From positions 1 through 7,300 of the forward strand of contig JAUYMQ010000007.1 in the NCBI GenBank assembly GCA_030698575.1: a stretch of 7,300 nt of DNA, in the 5' to 3' direction. The notes under the pieces were generated by a model that had not been told where the DNA came from, ran no database searches, and saw only the letters and a program-made list of their open reading frames with translations. How positions within the stretch are numbered: position 1 is the first letter of the stretch; the number at the start of each line of letters is the position of its first letter. The translations under genes were made by a program, and so were the position numbers. The DNA comes from Deltaproteobacteria bacterium (lineage in GTDB: Bacteria > JAUYMQ01). Below, piece after piece: positions 1-7,300 of this stretch.

Positions 1-919
1 CGGGCACTTCGGTCCGATCGCGAAGCGTGACGCAGGGAATTCCAAGGACGGCGCTCTCCTGCTGCACGCCACCCGAGTCGGTCATCACCAGCGCGGCGTT
101 CTTCAGCAAATCGACGAAGTCGAGGTAACCGAGTGGCGGCGAGATCCGGACGCCGGCGGGCAGCGCAAGCTGGCGGCTCCCGAGGCGCGCGCGGGTTCGC
201 GGATGAACGGGAAAGAGAACGGGCATCCGCCGGGCGATCATCGCCGCCGCTTTCAGGATCTCGTTCAGCGCAGGCCCCCGATCGACGTTCCCCGCGCGGT
301 GCGCGGTCAGGAGCGCATAGGCCCCCGGCCGGAGGGCGTGTCGCCGGGGTGTCGCCCGGTCGGTCTTCGGGAGAAAGCGTTGCAGGGTGTCGACCATGAC
401 GTTTCCGGTAAAGAAGATTCGCCGCTGATCGATCCCCTCATGTTCCAGGTTGCGTCCCGCCGCCTCCTCCGTCGTGAAAAGAAGATCGGACGCATGGTCC
501 GCGAGAATCCGGTTCACCTCCTCCGGCATCGTGCGGTCGAAAGCCCGGAGCCCGGCCTCCACGTGCGCGAGCGGAATTCCACAGACGCGGGCGGCGAGAG
601 CAGCGGCCGCGGTCGAGGTGACGTCGCCGACCACGACGACCAGCGCGGGAGTTCGGCGTTCAAACTCGGTTCGCAACGCCTCGAAGAGACGCGCCGGCAG
701 GAAAGCCGGAGGCGAAGCACCCGCGTCGAGAACGCGGTCGGGCGCCGGAAGTTCGAGATCGGCCAGGATGCGATCGCACATCTCCTCCCCCCGGTGCTGG
801 CCGGTCAGCAGCATCCGGACTTCGAGGCCACCGTGGTCGAGAAGTGCCGTTCGGAGGGCCGCGAGCTTCATGAAATTCGGCCGGGCGCCGGCCACCAGGA
901 GGACGACCGGGTTAGCCAC
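1..919 (-). CDS. wecB: UDP-N-acetylglucosamine 2-epimerase (non-hydrolysing), 3' end beyond window
   Basis: This enzyme interconverts UDP-GlcNAc and UDP-ManNAc in the cytoplasm, supplying ManNAc-type precursors for surface glycans. The first 306 residues are present. Family members run about 360-380, so roughly the last 60-70 residues lie left of position 1. Visible motifs, in order: the N-terminal GARPNFMK loop (11-18), TGQH (39-42), GDVTST (98-103, Asp99), HVEAGLRAFD (119-128, Glu121), MPEEVNR (131-137), LTAHRAGNVD (204-213, His207), HPR (239-241) and DSGGVQQE (281-288). Asp99, Glu121, the Glu in PEEVNR and His207 match the known catalytic positions of the family. The His207 loop has Gly where classical WecB has Glu (HRxEN). 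GTG at 919 is chosen because GAGG lies 6 nt upstream and the protein then begins directly at the first beta strand. An in-frame ATG at 931 would add four residues. The start overlaps the preceding glycosyltransferase by 8 nt (GTGGCTAA). The family call is firm; the exact substrate is inferred. Confidence 0.93.
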   Translation of the reverse strand, partial: MANPVVLLVAGARPNFMKLAALRTALLDHGGLEVRMLLTGQHRGEEMCDRILADLELPAPDRVLDAGASPPAFLPARLFEALRTEFERRTPALVVVVGDVTSTAAAALAARVCGIPLAHVEAGLRAFDRTMPEEVNRILADHASDLLFTTEEAAGRNLEHEGIDQRRIFFTGNVMVDTLQRFLPKTDRATPRRHALRPGAYALLTAHRAGNVDRGPALNEILKAAAMIARRMPVLFPVHPRTRARLGSRQLALPAGVRISPPLGYLDFVDLLKNAALVMTDSGGVQQESAVLGIPCVTLRDRTEVP

Positions 920-2240
920 GGCACACCTCATCAAGCAGCGAGGCGAAACGGCGCGATGCAGCCTGCCGGGTGTAGGGCGCCGCGGCCTGGGCATCGGCTC
1001 CCCGAAGGGGCCTTCCCGCGCGCTTCGAACCCGCCAGCGAGGTGAGCGCGCGGCAAACGTCTTCGGTGTCACCGGGCGCTACGACGCAACCAGCCCCGGT
1101 CTTTCGCACGAGATCCGCAGCCTCTCCTTCCGGCACGACAGCCAGCACGGGACGCCCCGCGCCGAGGTACTGGAAGATCTTTCCCGTGAGGATCCCTTCT
1201 CCATGCTTTCGATCACTCAGCGTGAGGAGCAGCGCATCGGCGCTTCGCTGCAGCGCGCAGGCGGTGCGCAAAGGCAGGTAGCCGACAGTGCGAACGAGCG
1301 CGGACACGCCGGCGCGCGCGGCGCATCTTGCCACCGCGGCCTGCTCCGTGCCGGCGAAGACCGCTTCGATCTCCGGCAGCCCCTGCCGCCTCGACTTCCC
1401 CGCATAGGCGCGCAGAGCGGCAAGGAAGGTCTCCGGCGTTCGCCCGTCGAGCCACCCCCCCGTGTAGACGATCCGAAGCTTCCCGGGGATCGGCGCGAGA
1501 TCGGACGGCAGTGATCCCTTTACGAAGTCTTCCGGGTCGAATCCGTTCTGGATGACGCGCACGTCTTCGGGGCGCAGCAAAGGGTGATCCTGCAGCAGCC
1601 CGTTCCGGATTCCCTGCGACACGGTCACGATCCGTCGCGCGGCGCCGGCGATGCCGGCCTCGAGCCGCCGTTCGATACGCCCGCGCCGGCCTTCTCCCCG
1701 ACGGAAGGAGGGATTGCGCGTCCAGGCGTCTCTGAAGTCGGCCACGAAGGGCACGCCGGTCTTCGCGGCGATGGCGCGCCCGACGAGATGGGCGGTGTGC
1801 GGCGGGGAGGTCGAGACGACCGCCTCGATGGCGCGCTCGCGGACGAGGCGCGCGCCCAGGCGGACGGCGAATGGATACCAGCCGATGAACTCGTCGGGAA
1901 TGTACAGGCCCTTGCGCAGCAATTCCTTCATGCCTTCAAGGACTCCGCCTCCCTCGCCCGCCGAACGGTCCTGAGTGACGGCTGCCCCGCCGGTCCCCTG
2001 GCGCCGGAAGCTACCCCAGAGGCGCCCGGGAATGATGATCGGGGCCCGGTGCACGGTGACGGCGGGCGGCAGTTCGGCGAGTGGGCTCTCGTCGACAGCG
2101 CTCCAGATGCCCCCCCGGACCGTCAGCACGTCCACCGCCCAGCCGGACGCGGGGAGGTACCGCGCCAGTTTCAGCGGGCGGCCAGCGCCGCCGCCCCCCA
2201 GCGGGGGGAAGTAGTAGGCGACCAGGAGCACGCGCCTCAT
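912..2240 (-). CDS. GT4-type glycosyltransferase (GT-B fold)
   Basis: Predicted 442-residue cytoplasmic or membrane-associated glycosyltransferase that moves a sugar from a nucleotide-sugar donor to a growing glycan. Donor and acceptor cannot be read from the sequence. The N-terminal domain begins with a beta strand and a glycine-rich loop (YYFPPLGGGGAGR, 9-21). It then has STSPPHTAH (143-151) and DFRDAW (168-173), both typical of a GT4 subgroup. VTVSQG (205-210) and the linker motif QNGFD (231-235) follow. The C-terminal donor domain carries YTGG (259-262) and HGEGILTGKIFQYLGAGRP (346-364), which equals the family's G-x-x-x-TGKxxEYL motif with Gln357 where Glu is usual. Residues about 80-100 are a Gly/Ser/Ala-rich, probably disordered insertion. 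ATG 2240 is chosen because the homology starts there, a purine-rich ribosome binding site (2244-2258) precedes it, and it overlaps the upstream stop by ATGA. The open frame continues 71 codons upstream, but that stretch is only a shadow of the neighbour. The stop is TAA. Confidence 0.9.
   Translation of the reverse strand: MRRVLLVAYYFPPLGGGGAGRPLKLARYLPASGWAVDVLTVRGGIWSAVDESPLAELPPAVTVHRAPIIIPGRLWGSFRRQGTGGAAVTQDRSAGEGGGVLEGMKELLRKGLYIPDEFIGWYPFAVRLGARLVRERAIEAVVSTSPPHTAHLVGRAIAAKTGVPFVADFRDAWTRNPSFRRGEGRRGRIERRLEAGIAGAARRIVTVSQGIRNGLLQDHPLLRPEDVRVIQNGFDPEDFVKGSLPSDLAPIPGKLRIVYTGGWLDGRTPETFLAALRAYAGKSRRQGLPEIEAVFAGTEQAAVARCAARAGVSALVRTVGYLPLRTACALQRSADALLLTLSDRKHGEGILTGKIFQYLGAGRPVLAVVPEGEAADLVRKTGAGCVVAPGDTEDVCRALTSLAGSKRAGRPLRGADAQAAAPYTRQAASRRFASLLDEVCRG
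926..929 (-). promoter_or_regulatory. Ribosome binding site deciding the epimerase start
   Basis: GAGG on the minus strand lies 6 nt before GTG 919, inside the last codons of the upstream glycosyltransferase. The competing in-frame ATG at 931 overlaps this motif and has no comparable purine tract before it. This favours the GTG start and coupling of translation to the upstream gene. Confidence 0.55.
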
Positions 2241-3310
2241 CGGCTTCCCCTCCCCTCCACGGCATTCTCGAGAATTTCCGCAAGTCGCCGGATTCCCACG
2301 CCGAAATCCGCCCGGTCCCGGATGATCGCGGGGTTCTCCGTCCGCGCCTTTTCCCGGAGGGCCCCCTCGTGGAGGCCGCTCGCGATGGCTTCCGCCAGGG
2401 CGTCCGGCGAGCCCGGCCGGTAGAGCAGGCCGTTCTCGGCGTGCCGGATCCATTCGCGGTTGGCCGGGATGTCGGGAGCGATGGGAAGCAGCCCCGTGGC
2501 CATCGCCTCGAGGAGCGAGAGAGACGCGCCGTCGGTGGGCGAGGTGCTCACGTAGAGATCCGCCTCTCGCAGCGCGCCTGCCACGCCGTCCTCATCGAGC
2601 GACCCGGTGAACGCGACCTCATCTTCGAGCTGCAGCGACCAGGCGAGCTGCGCAAGGGGCTCCGCCTCGGCGCCCTCGCCGGCGATGACGGTTCGCAAGC
2701 GGTTGCCGCAGGCCATGCGTGAAAGCGCCATGAGCAGAAGCTCGACCCGGTAGAGCGGCTCCAGGCTTCGCGTGCTGATGATCTTCAGCGTTTCGTCCCC
2801 CCGTCGCGGCGCCAAGCGCGGATGAAAGCGCCGGCAGTCGACGCCGTACTGGAAAGTCGCGATCCGCCCGGCCTCCGCTCCCAGCAGGAAGAGCGCCTCG
2901 GTGACGTGGGGAGCGGGCGAGGTGAAGCCGTCCATGCGCCGCGCCACAAAACGCATCACGGCGCGGTTGTAGCGCGTCCGCCGCGCCAGGAGGACGTCGG
3001 AGCCGTGGACTGTCAGAATTTTCGGAACCGGCCCGGCCAGCGCCGCGAGAAGGCCGTACACCGATATGTAGTGCGCGTGAAGCACGTCGATGCGGCGATC
3101 GCGGATGAGAGACCTGAGCCGCCGGACCTTCCGCATGAACCTGAGAAAGGGGACGCTTCCGGACCCATCGGCGAGATCGATCACTTCAATTCCGGGCAGC
3201 AGTGCGGGGGCGAAGGTCACGAAGGTGATTTCGTGCCCGCGCGCCGCGAGCGCGCCTGCAATTCGCTGCTGATGAATGCTTCGCGCTTCCCCCAGAACGA
3301 GCACGTTCAC
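2237..3310 (-). CDS. GT4-type glycosyltransferase (GT-B fold)
   Basis: Predicted 357-residue retaining glycosyltransferase of the GT4 type; the sugar and acceptor are unknown. The N-terminal acceptor domain shows the first strand MNVLVLGEA (1-9), IDVLHAHY (74-81) and TVHGSDVLL (100-108), the last a common GT4 signature. YGVDCRRFHP (155-164) marks the hinge into the donor domain. That domain has STRSLEPLYRVELLLMAL (179-196), IAGEGAE (209-215), FTGSL (234-238) and STSPTDGASLSLLEAMATG (255-273). The last corresponds to the E-x7-E donor-site motif, but the first Glu is Asp260 and the second is Glu268. This D-G-x-S-x-S-LLEAMA form is known in one GT4 branch. The protein is compact compared with the usual 360-400 residues. 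The start is GTG, supported by GGAGG 6 nt upstream and a GTGA overlap with the preceding gene. It ends in an ATGA overlap with the next glycosyltransferase, so it sits mid-operon. Confidence 0.9.
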   Translation of the reverse strand: MNVLVLGEARSIHQQRIAGALAARGHEITFVTFAPALLPGIEVIDLADGSGSVPFLRFMRKVRRLRSLIRDRRIDVLHAHYISVYGLLAALAGPVPKILTVHGSDVLLARRTRYNRAVMRFVARRMDGFTSPAPHVTEALFLLGAEAGRIATFQYGVDCRRFHPRLAPRRGDETLKIISTRSLEPLYRVELLLMALSRMACGNRLRTVIAGEGAEAEPLAQLAWSLQLEDEVAFTGSLDEDGVAGALREADLYVSTSPTDGASLSLLEAMATGLLPIAPDIPANREWIRHAENGLLYRPGSPDALAEAIASGLHEGALREKARTENPAIIRDRADFGVGIRRLAEILENAVEGRGSR

Positions 3311-4485
3311 GGCAGGCCTCCATTTCCAAGAAGCTGCGCGTAGAGCGCCTCGTGACGCGCCACCATCGCCTGGATGCCGTGATTGAGCTCGACTTTCTTC
3401 CGGGCCTCCTCTCCCAGCCGCTTGCGTAGATCGTCGTCGAGGAGAAGCTGCAGGACCGCCTCCGCGAAGGGGGCCGGATCGAGGGACTCCACGCGCGGCG
3501 CCCAGAACACCGGGGCCGGCAGGAGCCCCGAGACTCCGGCATCGACCACCTCGGGAAAGGCGCCCACGCGCGGGGCGACCACCGCCTTGCCGCAGGCCAT
3601 GGCCTCGAGCAGCGTGAGGGGAAGGCCCTCGTAACGTGAAGTTGCGAGAAAGACGTCGAATGCCGTCATGGCTGCGGCCGGCTCCTGGAAGCCGGTGAAC
3701 ACAACCCGGTGCGCCAACCCGAGGGACGCCGAGAGGCGCTCGAGGGGAACGCGCGCGGGACCGTCGCCCACGATGACGAAGCGCGCCGCCGGAACCCGAA
3801 CCGCCACGCCGGCGGCGGCATGCAGGTACAGATCAATCCCTTTCTGATGCGTGAGCCGGCCGAGCGTGCCGACGACGGGCGCTTCCGCAGAAATGCCCCA
3901 CTCGTCCCGGAGTGCGCGCGCCCTTCCACGGAGATCCACCGAGGCGGGATCGAAGCGGTTGAAATCGACGCCGTTCGGGATCGTGGTGATGCGTCGGGGC
4001 GGGCACCCCTCTTCCCGGACGAGGTGGCCCGCTACCGTCGATGAAACCGCGACGACCCGGTGCGCGAGATGCGACGACAGAAAGCAGCGGCGGCGCATGC
4101 CGGCGTTCAGATCTGGATAGGTGAGATGACGGGTGTACACGCGGGCCGGCACGCGCGCGAGCGCCCCATGGATCATGGCCCAGACATCCGCCGGCCTGTT
4201 GTGCGCGTGGATCACCGCCGGCCGGAGGCTCGCCAGGAGTCTGTGCAGGGCGCGGGCGGCCGGGATATCCCTGAGCCCGTCCATCGCGATCTGATGCATT
4301 GGCACGCCGGCGTCGTTCAGAGCTGCGCCCAGCGCGGGATCGATTCCGTCCGGACCGGAACGAAGAGCGAGCAGATGGGGCTCCCAGCGGCTCGAGGCGA
4401 GGCGCGCGAGGTCAACAGCGACCGTCTCCGCCCCGCCCACCCGTGCGAGGGTGTTCACAATCTGGAGAACGCGGATCGGGCTCAT
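3307..4485 (-). CDS. GT4-type glycosyltransferase (GT-B fold)
   Basis: Predicted 392-residue retaining glycosyltransferase, the most canonical GT4 member of the three. The N-terminal domain has VLQIVNTLARVGGAE (6-20, the glycine loop), VIHAHNRPAD (91-100), TRH (118-120) and VVAVSS (144-149). The hinge motif IPNGVDFNRF (169-178) leads into the donor domain: GTLGRLTHQKG (206-216, with the phosphate-contacting Arg and Lys), VIVGDGP (237-243), VVFTGF (261-266) and RYEGLPLTLLEAMACG (284-299). The last contains an intact E-x7-E pair, Glu286 and Glu294. A short extra loop around 323-338 (PAPVFWAPRVESLDPA) lies where most relatives go straight into the last helices. The start ATG 4485 overlaps the flippase stop by ATGA, with GGGGGTGG (4490-4497) just upstream. 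The frame is open for 125 further codons upstream, but those overlap the flippase and show no homology. The specificity is unknown. Its place directly after the flippase suggests it is an early transferase of the same glycan pathway. Confidence 0.93.
   Translation of the reverse strand: MSPIRVLQIVNTLARVGGAETVAVDLARLASSRWEPHLLALRSGPDGIDPALGAALNDAGVPMHQIAMDGLRDIPAARALHRLLASLRPAVIHAHNRPADVWAMIHGALARVPARVYTRHLTYPDLNAGMRRRCFLSSHLAHRVVAVSSTVAGHLVREEGCPPRRITTIPNGVDFNRFDPASVDLRGRARALRDEWGISAEAPVVGTLGRLTHQKGIDLYLHAAAGVAVRVPAARFVIVGDGPARVPLERLSASLGLAHRVVFTGFQEPAAAMTAFDVFLATSRYEGLPLTLLEAMACGKAVVAPRVGAFPEVVDAGVSGLLPAPVFWAPRVESLDPAPFAEAVLQLLLDDDLRKRLGEEARKKVELNHGIQAMVARHEALYAQLLGNGGLP
3317..3321 (-). promoter_or_regulatory. 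Ribosome binding site for a GTG-initiated glycosyltransferase
   Basis: A perfect GGAGG on the minus strand lies 6 nt before GTG 3310, inside the 3' end of the upstream glycosyltransferase gene. It supports the non-ATG start and the GTGA overlap; the nearest in-frame downstream GTG (codon 3) is less well spaced. Confidence 0.65.
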
Positions 4486-6053
4486 CGTGCCACCCCCGGC
4501 GGCACTCCGGCGACTGCGACGCCTCCCAGGCGAAACGAGAGCCGGAGCCGGGCGGCAAGTTCGATCAGCGGCTCGATCCGCAGGATCCAGCCCGCTGCTC
4601 CGTAGGCAGCCAGTCCACCAAATGCAGTGAGGCAGAGCGCGACCACGGCTGCGGCGCCGCCCTCGTCGGCGGGAATCAGTGCCGCGAGGCTGCGAGTCAC
4701 GAGCGTCATGAAGCCGCCGGCCACCCCGACGCGGATGCAAAAGCCGGTCCAGCCGCCGAGCGGCGCCACACCAAGGCGGCGCCTCAGGATCACGTAGAGG
4801 ATCGGAATGCCAAGGATGGCGTTGGCCGAGGTGACCGCCGCGACGCCATACACGCCCCACTGCCGGAAGACCAGCGCGTCGAGAATGACGTTCAACGCAA
4901 GAGGCACCAGGCCTCCCCAGATCATCGGGTCCCGCGTGTTGCCGATGGCGTAGAACCCGCGCACGAGCAGGCTCCCCACCCCGCCCAGCAGGAGGATCCC
5001 CCCGTAGCAGGCAAGGATGCCCGCAACGCGCGCGGTGTCGGCATCGGAGAATCGGCCGTGCTCGAACACCACCGTGAGCGCGGGCGATGCAAGGAGGCAG
5101 ATGAGAATGACGAAGGGGAGCATGCCCGCGATCACCCAGCGCGATCCCCGATCCAGCAACCGGAAGAGGCCGGCCCGGTCCGACTGGGCCTCCCGATCCG
5201 CCAGCCCGGGATAGACGACCGCCGCCACCGGCGAGACGAGAACCGCCAGCACCAGCCCCACGACGAGATCCGCATAGCCCAGCGAGGAGAGCTTCCCCTC
5301 GCCGAGAAAGGAGACGAAGAATCGATCGACGGCGCCGTTCAGGCGCGCCGAGGTCACGGCCACGACGACCGGAAGCGCGAGCCAGGCCAGCCGGCGCACC
5401 TCGGGGTGCCCGATCTCGATCCGCGGCCTGAGCGGCGCGCCTTCACGCGCCAGGATCCAGACGAGCGGGGCCAGCGCGAGGACCTTGGCCGCCAGCGTGC
5501 CCCCGATGAGGCTCCAGAGCCCGAGCCGGTCCGAGAGAAGCAGGACCGCCGCCAGGGGCGCCAGCTGGGATGCAGCCCCCGCGAGGGCGGGAAGCGTGAA
5601 GCGCCGCCGGGCATGGAACGCCTGGGTGAGCAGCGCCCCCGCCACCCCGAAGGCCATTCCCGGGAAGAGCAGGGCCAGGTAGTCGCCCGCGAGGCGCAGC
5701 GTCGCGCCGTCCAGACCGGGCGCAACCGCCCGCACGAGCGTCAGGCGCCCGAAGGCCACCGGAATGGAAAGAAGAAGGAGCCCGCCCGCGAGCAGCCAGA
5801 CGAACGTTGAGAGCACGCGCCAGGCCTCGGCGCCCTGCCCTGAAGCGAAACGCCGGACGAGCAAAGGCAGGAGCAGCTGCGCCACGGCCGCCAGCGCGAG
5901 GGCTTCCACGACCCCCGGAAGAGTCAGTGCCGCGATGTAGGCGTCCACCTCCTGGCCCGTGCCGAACTTGTTGGCGAGGGCAATCTGCAGCCCGAGGCCG
6001 ATGACCTGGGTCAGCAGGGAAAACAGGATGAGGACGAAGCTGCTTCTGAGCAT
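4482..6053 (-). CDS. MurJ/MviN-type (MVF family) lipid-linked glycan flippase, divergent
   Basis: A very hydrophobic inner-membrane protein of 523 residues with about 14 likely transmembrane segments, the length and topology of the MVF branch of the MOP exporter superfamily. Family hallmarks (numbered from the alternative GTG 6059) include FGTGQEVDAY (32-41), LPGVV (47-51), GYADLVVGLVLAVLVSPVAAVVYP (261-284), FEHGRFSDADT (332-342) and RGFYAIGNTRDP (367-378). Aligned by eye with E. coli MurJ as remembered, Asp39 is kept, but Arg18, Arg24, Arg52 and Arg270 are replaced by Gln18, Leu24, Glu52 and Leu265. Those arginines are needed for lipid II flipping, so a lipid-linked oligosaccharide of this locus is the likelier cargo. 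ATG 6053 is chosen because GGAAG (6059-6063) is well spaced for it. GTG 6059 would give a GTGA overlap but has almost no space after its purine tract. The stop overlaps the next gene by ATGA. Family assignment is strong; the cargo is inferred. Confidence 0.9.
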   Translation of the reverse strand: MLRSSFVLILFSLLTQVIGLGLQIALANKFGTGQEVDAYIAALTLPGVVEALALAAVAQLLLPLLVRRFASGQGAEAWRVLSTFVWLLAGGLLLLSIPVAFGRLTLVRAVAPGLDGATLRLAGDYLALLFPGMAFGVAGALLTQAFHARRRFTLPALAGAASQLAPLAAVLLLSDRLGLWSLIGGTLAAKVLALAPLVWILAREGAPLRPRIEIGHPEVRRLAWLALPVVVAVTSARLNGAVDRFFVSFLGEGKLSSLGYADLVVGLVLAVLVSPVAAVVYPGLADREAQSDRAGLFRLLDRGSRWVIAGMLPFVILICLLASPALTVVFEHGRFSDADTARVAGILACYGGILLLGGVGSLLVRGFYAIGNTRDPMIWGGLVPLALNVILDALVFRQWGVYGVAAVTSANAILGIPILYVILRRRLGVAPLGGWTGFCIRVGVAGGFMTLVTRSLAALIPADEGGAAAVVALCLTAFGGLAAYGAAGWILRIEPLIELAARLRLSFRLGGVAVAGVPPGVAR

Positions 6054-6055
6054 GC

Positions 6056-7300
6056 TCACTTCCAGAGTAAATAGTTGCCCATCACGAGGTACTCGAGGCC
6101 ACAGGTGTAGAAGGTGCCGATGGCGTCGAGCGGCGTGTTCACAATGGGCTGACCCTTGACGTTGAAGCTTGTGTTGAGGAGCACCGGAACGCCGGTGAGC
6201 TTCCGGAACTCCTCGAGCAGTTGCCAGTACCGCGGGTTGGTTCCGCGCTCGACGAGATGGGGGCGGCAGGTGCCGTCGACATGGACGGTGCTCTGGATCT
6301 CCGGGCGCCGATCCTCCCTGGCGATGAAGGCATGGATCATGAAGGGGGACCGGTAAGGATCTTCCAGGTAGTCGGCCGCGTGCTCAGCCTGCATCGAGGG
6401 TGCGAAGGGCCTCCAGAGCTCCCGCCATTTCACGTCGCGATTCACCCGATCGCGCATGTCCGGCCCGGCCGGGTTCGCCAGAATGCTTCGGCCTCCAAGC
6501 GCTCGCGCCCCCAGCTCCATCGGGCCCTGGAACCACCCCACGATATGGTTGTCGGCCAGCAACTGGGCCGTGACCGCGCAGATGTCGTCGCTCCGTTCGT
6601 AGTTCTTCACGCGCGTCTTGCGGAGAGCCGTTTCGATGTCCGCTTCCGAATAGGACGGGCCCCAGTAGGCGTGGTCGAAGGGGCCGTCGGGGCGCCGTCC
6701 CGTCGTGCGGGTGTGCACCCATGCAGCCGCGCCGAGCGCGGTGCCGGCGTCGCTTGAAGCGGGCTGGACGAAGATCCCGTCGGTATATGGCCCGCGGAAG
6801 AGCACGCCGTTCATGGAGCAGTTCATCGCGATACCGCCCGCCAGGCAGAGATTGCGGATGCCCGTGCGCCGCTGCAGGTAGCGATTCATGAGAAGCACGG
6901 CGCGCTCGAGCGTCACCTGGAGCGATGCGGCCAGGCTCCGATGCTCATCGGTGAGCGGATCCTCCGGCCGCCGCTGGGGTAGATCGGCTATGAACTTGCT
7001 GAAGGCCCCTGGCCTGATTCGCGGGTAAGGCTCGTTCCAGTCAACGAAGGGGAGCACGTCCCCCTCGCCGTACGCGGCAAGCCCCATCACCTTTCCCTCG
7101 TCCGAGTGCGGCCGGAAGCCCAGCCGCGCGGTCACCTTCTCGTACATGTGCCCCCAGCTCGAGGAGATGGGGATGCTGTCGAGGATCTCGATCCGATTGC
7201 CCCTTCCGACGGCCAGCACGCCGGACTCGAACCCTCCCCGGCCGTCGAGCGAGATGATGTTCGCTTCCTCGAAGTCGGAGAGAAGAAAGGCGCTTGCGGC
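6056..7300 (-). CDS. NodU/CmcH/TobZ-family O-carbamoyltransferase, 5' end beyond window
   Basis: This family uses carbamoyl phosphate and ATP to form carbamoyladenylate, then transfers the carbamoyl group to a hydroxyl, as on Nod factors, cephalosporins or tobramycin. Here 414 C-terminal residues are visible from a family length of about 560-620, so some 150-200 N-terminal residues lie right of 7300. The visible part starts at AASAFLLSDF, just after the expected metal-binding His motif. The Kae1-like domain continues with ISLDGRGG (16-23), SSSWGHMYEKVTARLGF (46-62), EGKVMGLAAYG (68-78), LAGGIAMNCSMN (153-164) and ASSDAGTALGAA (181-192), where Asp184 is the likely metal ligand. The C-terminal YrdC-like domain has GWFQGPMELGARALGGRSI (255-273), KWRELWRPFAPS (291-302) and LNTSFNVKGQPIV (375-387). 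GTG at 7219 is an internal codon, since homology continues unbroken to the edge. Family confidence is very high. The acceptor is unknown; the neighbours point to a glycan sugar. Confidence 0.95.
   Translation of the reverse strand, partial: AASAFLLSDFEEANIISLDGRGGFESGVLAVGRGNRIEILDSIPISSSWGHMYEKVTARLGFRPHSDEGKVMGLAAYGEGDVLPFVDWNEPYPRIRPGAFSKFIADLPQRRPEDPLTDEHRSLAASLQVTLERAVLLMNRYLQRRTGIRNLCLAGGIAMNCSMNGVLFRGPYTDGIFVQPASSDAGTALGAAAWVHTRTTGRRPDGPFDHAYWGPSYSEADIETALRKTRVKNYERSDDICAVTAQLLADNHIVGWFQGPMELGARALGGRSILANPAGPDMRDRVNRDVKWRELWRPFAPSMQAEHAADYLEDPYRSPFMIHAFIAREDRRPEIQSTVHVDGTCRPHLVERGTNPRYWQLLEEFRKLTGVPVLLNTSFNVKGQPIVNTPLDAIGTFYTCGLEYLVMGNYLLWK
6059..6063 (-). promoter_or_regulatory. Weak ribosome binding site at the flippase start
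   Basis: GGAAG on the minus strand is 5 nt before ATG 6053. It abuts the alternative start GTG 6059 and overlaps its first base. This spacing favours ATG 6053, leaving a 2-nt gap after the carbamoyltransferase TGA. The site is weak, and translational coupling to the upstream gene probably matters. Confidence 0.4.

Follow-up and report, generated by a model that had tools for sequence, protein, structure and literature searches.

The MVF-family flippase encoded in the window, as we call the whole 7,300-nucleotide stretch of Deltaproteobacteria DNA analysed here (contig JAUYMQ010000007.1), probably moves a sugar-lipid other than lipid II, since the four arginines on which MurJ relies have been lost from it, its neighbours are glycan genes, and a normal MurJ is kept in its own genome and in those of its two nearest relatives, all of them deep-branching bacteria. 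Judged from the sequence, with a probability of about 0.7, the gene would belong to a dedicated carbamoyltransferase-flippase-glycosyltransferase module whose MVF protein flips a lipid-linked glycan that is not lipid II and may be carbamoylated. The changed cargo is supported by the combination of residue loss, a second MurJ, a separate clade and a conserved module.

The contig is 7.3 kb long, is cut at both ends and carries the following genes.

2–931, minus strand: non-hydrolysing UDP-GlcNAc 2-epimerase of the WecB type, truncated at the contig end (TIGR00236, 241.8 bits, above the cut-off of 210.15)
912–2240, minus strand: third GT4-like glycosyltransferase, with its start at MRRVLLVAYY
2237–3310, minus strand: second GT4 glycosyltransferase
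3307–4485, minus strand: GT4 glycosyltransferase directly downstream of the flippase gene, overlapping its stop by 4 bases
4482–6059, minus strand: MVF-family flippase of the Q18-L24-Q25 branch (PF03023, TIGR01695, alignment and tree)
6056–7300, minus strand: C-terminal 414 aa of a NodU/CmcH-type O-carbamoyltransferase (PF16861, 1.3e-64; PF02543, 4.3e-33), of which about 130 N-terminal aa lie off the contig end

The carbamoyltransferase, flippase and GT4 genes overlap by 4 bases each, which points to a single operon, and the WecB-type enzyme is expected to supply UDP-ManNAc. The original prediction had placed the flippase in a glycosyltransferase operon, and the three GT4 genes, WecB and the carbamoyltransferase around it bear this out; it did not mention the carbamoyltransferase, the best clue of all.

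The flippase reading frame encodes 525 aa from a GTG at 6059 or 523 aa from an ATG at 6053. The ATG lies two codons further in and is more likely to be the start, since the nearest relatives, found in genomes G288 and G149, both begin there. The protein matches PF03023 (MurJ) over residues 28–447 with an E-value of 1.4e-58 and 199.1 bits against a gathering threshold of 27.4, which places it in the MVF family, and scores 208 bits against the MurJ equivalog model TIGR01695, below the cut-off of 235.55. In phmmer it aligns over nearly its full length with solved MurJ structures from E. coli, T. africanus and others (best 7waw, 1.2e-27), and the nearly gapless match to the E. coli N terminus that was noticed first is real, with no gap across TM1-TM2 as far as residue 53. 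The register of the alignment is anchored by FGTG..VDA, YAD and unbroken helices and not by a reliable structure model: AlphaFold run from a two-row alignment gave a pLDDT of 46, and Foldseek with that low-confidence model still places MurJ entries at the top. Since the model is too poor for electrostatics, all statements on cavity charge come from residue mapping. A PST-family Wzx identity was rejected, as PF03023 is the best match, PF13440 reaches only 40.8 bits and PF01943 is not among the matches listed. A pseudogene was likewise discarded, the frame of 525 aa being intact and the functional residues being kept across phyla.

Alignment by MAFFT with the E. coli and T. africanus MurJ proteins gives Q/L/Q/D/E/L/G in the window flippase at E. 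coli positions R18/R24/D25/D39/R52/R270/E273. The residues concerned, together with those of the sodium site and a new arginine, lie as follows.

5985–6008, minus strand: TM1 cavity positions Q18 (6006–6008), L24 (5988–5990) and Q25 (5985–5987), which are R, R and D in MurJ
5943–5945, minus strand: conserved D39, a periplasmic gate residue in MurJ (alignment)
5904–5906, minus strand: E52 on TM2 in place of MurJ R52 (alignment)
5343–5345, minus strand: R239 on TM7, where E. coli has Q244; the same in all branch members, a possible compensating cavity arginine
5325–5327, minus strand: D245, the counterpart of D235, which is a Na+ ligand in T. africanus MurJ (alignment)
5265–5267, minus strand: L265 in the YADL motif on TM8, where MurJ has R270 (alignment)
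4890–4892, 4878–4880 and 4830–4832, minus strand: N390, D394 and T410, which with D245 make up a complete DND-T sodium site

The residues first read by eye at R18, R24, R52 and R270 (Q, L, E and L), as well as the retained D39, were thus correct at all five positions, and D25 can be added to the losses. MurJ cannot do without R18, R24 and R270, the last being R255 in T. africanus (PMC9973255; PMC4790310); they are Q, L and L here. R52 and D39 are essential in E. coli MurJ and dispensable in B. cenocepacia (PMC4790310). In T. africanus, the proposed lipid II site is a triad of Arg24, Asp25 and Arg255, of which Arg24 was called invariant (PMC6465408). The comparison was widened to 94 MVF proteins, namely the window protein, the MurJs of E. 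coli and T. africanus, and the proteins that it matched best in 290 genomes, mostly of different families and phyla; most of the proteins come from one or two genomes per phylum. Of the 94, 85 have R or K at position 24 and 80 at position 270, and R and K are missing from positions 18, 24, 52 and 270 together in the window protein and in one other, that of genome G053. Arginine loss alone is insufficient to prove a new cargo, because some MurJ homologues work after losing charged residues; the S. pyogenes homologue has no more than three of eight charged residues similarly placed (PMC4790310).

In the search of the 290 genomes, the proteins nearest in kind are those of G288 (the best match, 37% identity) and G149 (32% over the matched part); these two are the sole sampled genomes of their phylum, which is another than that of the window genome, itself the only one of its genus, order, class and phylum in the collection. 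Q18, L24, Q25 and D39 are common to all three flippases, and R270 is kept in G288 and G149. The coordinated loss of all four arginines, as originally proposed, is accordingly true of the window protein and is rejected as a trait of the branch. The three flippases form one clade (SH-aLRT 100), remote from the MurJs of the same genomes in a tree that includes long branches, and its two relatives reach 152 and 96 bits with TIGR01695, again under the cut-off of 235.55, so the proposal of a separate MVF branch stands. With three known members, two of them from one phylum, the branch statistics are small and not independent. Scans of viral contigs for further relatives found none, and one of genome contigs matched only a canonical Syntrophaceae MurJ.

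All three genomes carry a second MurJ. In the window assembly it lies on contig C545, scores 433 bits with TIGR01695 and has R, R, E, D, R and R at R18/R24/D25/D39/R52/R270, so that the search for a canonical murJ that had been suggested as a check succeeded, with all four arginines in place, and the window flippase is not the only or main murJ of its genome. In G288 and G149, too, a separate MurJ exceeds the cut-off and has the four arginines. The canonical MurJs of the three genomes group together (support 99), which, with the shared clade of the other three proteins, indicates an old paralogue rather than local decay of a MurJ.

Could the protein instead be a second MurJ that has diverged yet goes on flipping lipid II, whether as a backup or during a special phase of growth? 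Family and fold are shared, several charged residues are missing in some MurJ homologues (PMC4790310), and Wzk, an O-antigen flippase from H. pylori, can replace MurJ (PMC4990322). However, the whole Arg24-Asp25-Arg270 triad is gone together with R18, in a family where R24 is described as invariant among MurJs (PMC6465408) and R or K in all but nine of the sampled proteins, and the gene sits in a glycan operon of a genome with a canonical copy, which makes this improbable. It is less credible still that the contig is a misassembly or contamination from another organism, which would make the second murJ irrelevant. The assembly does have 653 contigs and an estimated contamination of 4.6%, but the window contig and C545 agree in GC (0.686 vs 0.666) and tetranucleotide profile (r = 0.978), so a foreign origin is unlikely, and the same combination of branch flippase and canonical MurJ occurs in the G149 genome, on two (561 and 320 kb long) of its roughly 20 contigs.

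Gene order provides evidence independent of the tree. In all three genomes, from two phyla, a carbamoyltransferase lies upstream and a GT4 gene downstream of the flippase. The carbamoyltransferase has the same orientation as the flippase and lies 20 bp upstream of it in G149 and about 550 bp in G288, where an opposite-strand XRE-type helix-turn-helix gene appears between the two (L045, about 5610–6160). Both Carbam_trans_N and Carbam_trans_C domains are found in the window copy, truncated as it is by the contig end, and in the fuller relatives. The module carbamoyltransferases are 54–61% identical to one another, that of the window sharing 54–55% with those of G288 and G149. The downstream GT4s are 35–38% identical, and TIGR03088 is the best model for each of them at sub-threshold scores. 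The G288 neighbourhood also has a UDP-sugar dehydrogenase and an epimerase. No carbamoyltransferase was found by tblastn with the module enzymes at the other MVF loci examined (flanks of roughly 0.6–10 kb), and MVF queries found no MVF gene near 27 other carbamoyltransferases, the best loci besides the module in a search of 386 genomes (flanks of about 1.5 kb). The window genome has two further NodU-type carbamoyltransferases (G000:C569:6905-8527 and G000:C351:4547-6166), with no MVF gene on the surrounding stretches. Plasmid carbamoyltransferase neighbourhoods of Paraburkholderia and Streptomyces were considered as a precedent and rejected; they are heptose/LPS-core-like clusters and are no precedent for the module because they carry no MVF gene.

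In a rival reading, the protein is a Wzx-like MVF flippase of the ordinary kind, its cargo being a polysaccharide repeat unit that carries no carbamoyl group; the carbamoyltransferase would act at another point of the pathway, for example on another glycan or a nucleotide sugar, and would be irrelevant to the flippase. MVF/MviN proteins are annotated in Aeromonas O-antigen clusters (PMC3835674), and LPS core heptose is also modified by a NodU-type enzyme, WapO (PMC8005017). Moreover, a second, arginine-poor MVF branch that lacks R24 (G053, G067 and G209; loci L048:8909-10456, L169:8007-9605 and L170:6439-7989, with I-T-Q, Y-S-Q and Q-T-S at 18/24/25) lies in glycan clusters beside GT4-like genes and has no carbamoyltransferase neighbour. 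These GT4-like genes, and the aminotransferase, epimerase or asparagine-synthase-like genes on the G053 and G067 stretches, were recognised by reading the sequence, and each of the three genomes also carries an MVF protein over the MurJ cut-off. Against such a role, nothing else in the neighbourhood is as constant across the three genomes as the carbamoyltransferase-flippase pair, and in G149 this pair is accompanied by one GT4 gene, with no sugar-nucleotide genes seen adjoining. We regard an uncarbamoylated repeat unit as unlikely.

Since both R24-less branches sit in glycan clusters, six of the nine R24-less proteins combine this loss with a glycan setting. The paralogous MVF proteins of the K18-E24-K25 type (G097 and G236) are an exception to the pattern; their loci (L171:2293-3876 and L172:378-1997) lie outside glycan clusters, one of them beside an ORF for a HAD-like phosphatase. 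The ninth protein is that of G238.

It is plausible, as was suggested, that the flippase stands in for a PST-family Wzx; the idea is weakened by a contig of 7.3 kb cut at both ends and by four PF01943 (PST) proteins elsewhere in the window genome. One of these, on C325 (L003), adjoins a TPR-repeat membrane protein. No PST flippase was seen in the window or, in tblastn with the genome's own PST proteins as a weak query set, in the G288 and G149 stretches, the contigs being short.

Several parts of the MurJ transport cycle are retained. The sodium site of T. africanus MurJ consists of D235, N374, D378 and T394 (PMC6465408), and the Na+ ligands, D39 and the gate glycine are present in all three branch members. 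The chloride ligands of MurJ are R24 and R255 (PMC9973255); R24 is gone from all three, and R255 (R270) from the window protein only. As T. africanus MurJ did not need sodium for its function in vivo (PMC9973255), Na+ coupling of the window flippase is possible at most. Gln25 occurs in five of the 94 MVF proteins, all five with Arg244, which is found in two of the 89 others; as the five belong to two clades, possibly sisters (support 80), this covariation amounts to one or two events and is suggestive only. The change of cavity charge that was originally expected would follow from the replaced arginines, and the new TM7 arginine may partly offset it.

In the proposed pathway, the adjacent GT4 enzymes would build an undecaprenyl-linked glycan, perhaps with ManNAc, which the cytoplasmic O-carbamoyltransferase would decorate before flipping. 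The MVF flippase, no longer serving peptidoglycan, would then move the lipid-linked glycan across the membrane by means of a kept fold, D39 gate and Na+ site, while the Arg24-Asp25-Arg270 triad and Arg18/Arg52 have been replaced and the TM7 arginine may have assumed some of the contact with phosphate or glycan. The adjacency of the carbamoyltransferase suggests a common pathway and is not proof that the flipped lipid is carbamoylated. Only tentatively, the module could represent a new class of MOP flippase: a self-contained carbamoyltransferase-MVF-GT4 unit with a carbamoylated lipid-linked glycan as cargo, in which the triad is rebuilt around the TM7 arginine (244) and Gln25 and the cycle and Na+ site are unchanged.

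The branch is a natural experiment on the open question of cargo choice by MOP flippases, as it lets the residues for flipping lipid II be separated from those for flipping at all. Automatic 'MurJ' labels on such proteins may also mislead about their substrate. A literature search found no report of the Q-L-Q branch, nor of a carbamoyltransferase paired with it.

Among known systems, the window flippase shares with MurJ (E. coli 6CC4, T. africanus 5T77/6NC6-9) its full-length homology, the FGTG..DA and YAD motifs, D39, the periplasmic-gate partner residues and the T. africanus-type Na+ site, and its weak model fits MurJ structures best. It differs from MurJ in the replacement of R18, R24, D25, R52, R270 and E273, the extra TM7 arginine, a score under the NCBI cut-off, a glycan operon beside a carbamoyltransferase and the presence of a canonical MurJ as well. 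With PST Wzx proteins (WzxE, 9G9P) it has in common the MOP superfamily and the expected task of moving an undecaprenyl-PP-linked oligosaccharide; unlike them, its best family is PF03023 and not PF01943, and WzxE is a far weaker fold match to the low-confidence model. The module carbamoyltransferases have the Carbam_trans_N and _C domains of NodU/NolO/CmcH, but in contrast to NolO and other plasmid-borne members (about 40% identity) they form their own subgroup, with 54–61% identity within it. PslK of P. aeruginosa is an MVF protein of an exopolysaccharide cluster. The MviN/MVF proteins of O-antigen and exopolysaccharide clusters, such as ORF13 of an Aeromonas O-antigen cluster (PMC3835674), are likewise surrounded by glycosyltransferases, where an O-unit flippase would be expected. 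Polysaccharide clusters with an MVF protein are already known, and the Q-L-Q branch with its carbamoyltransferase module looks like a new variant of them.
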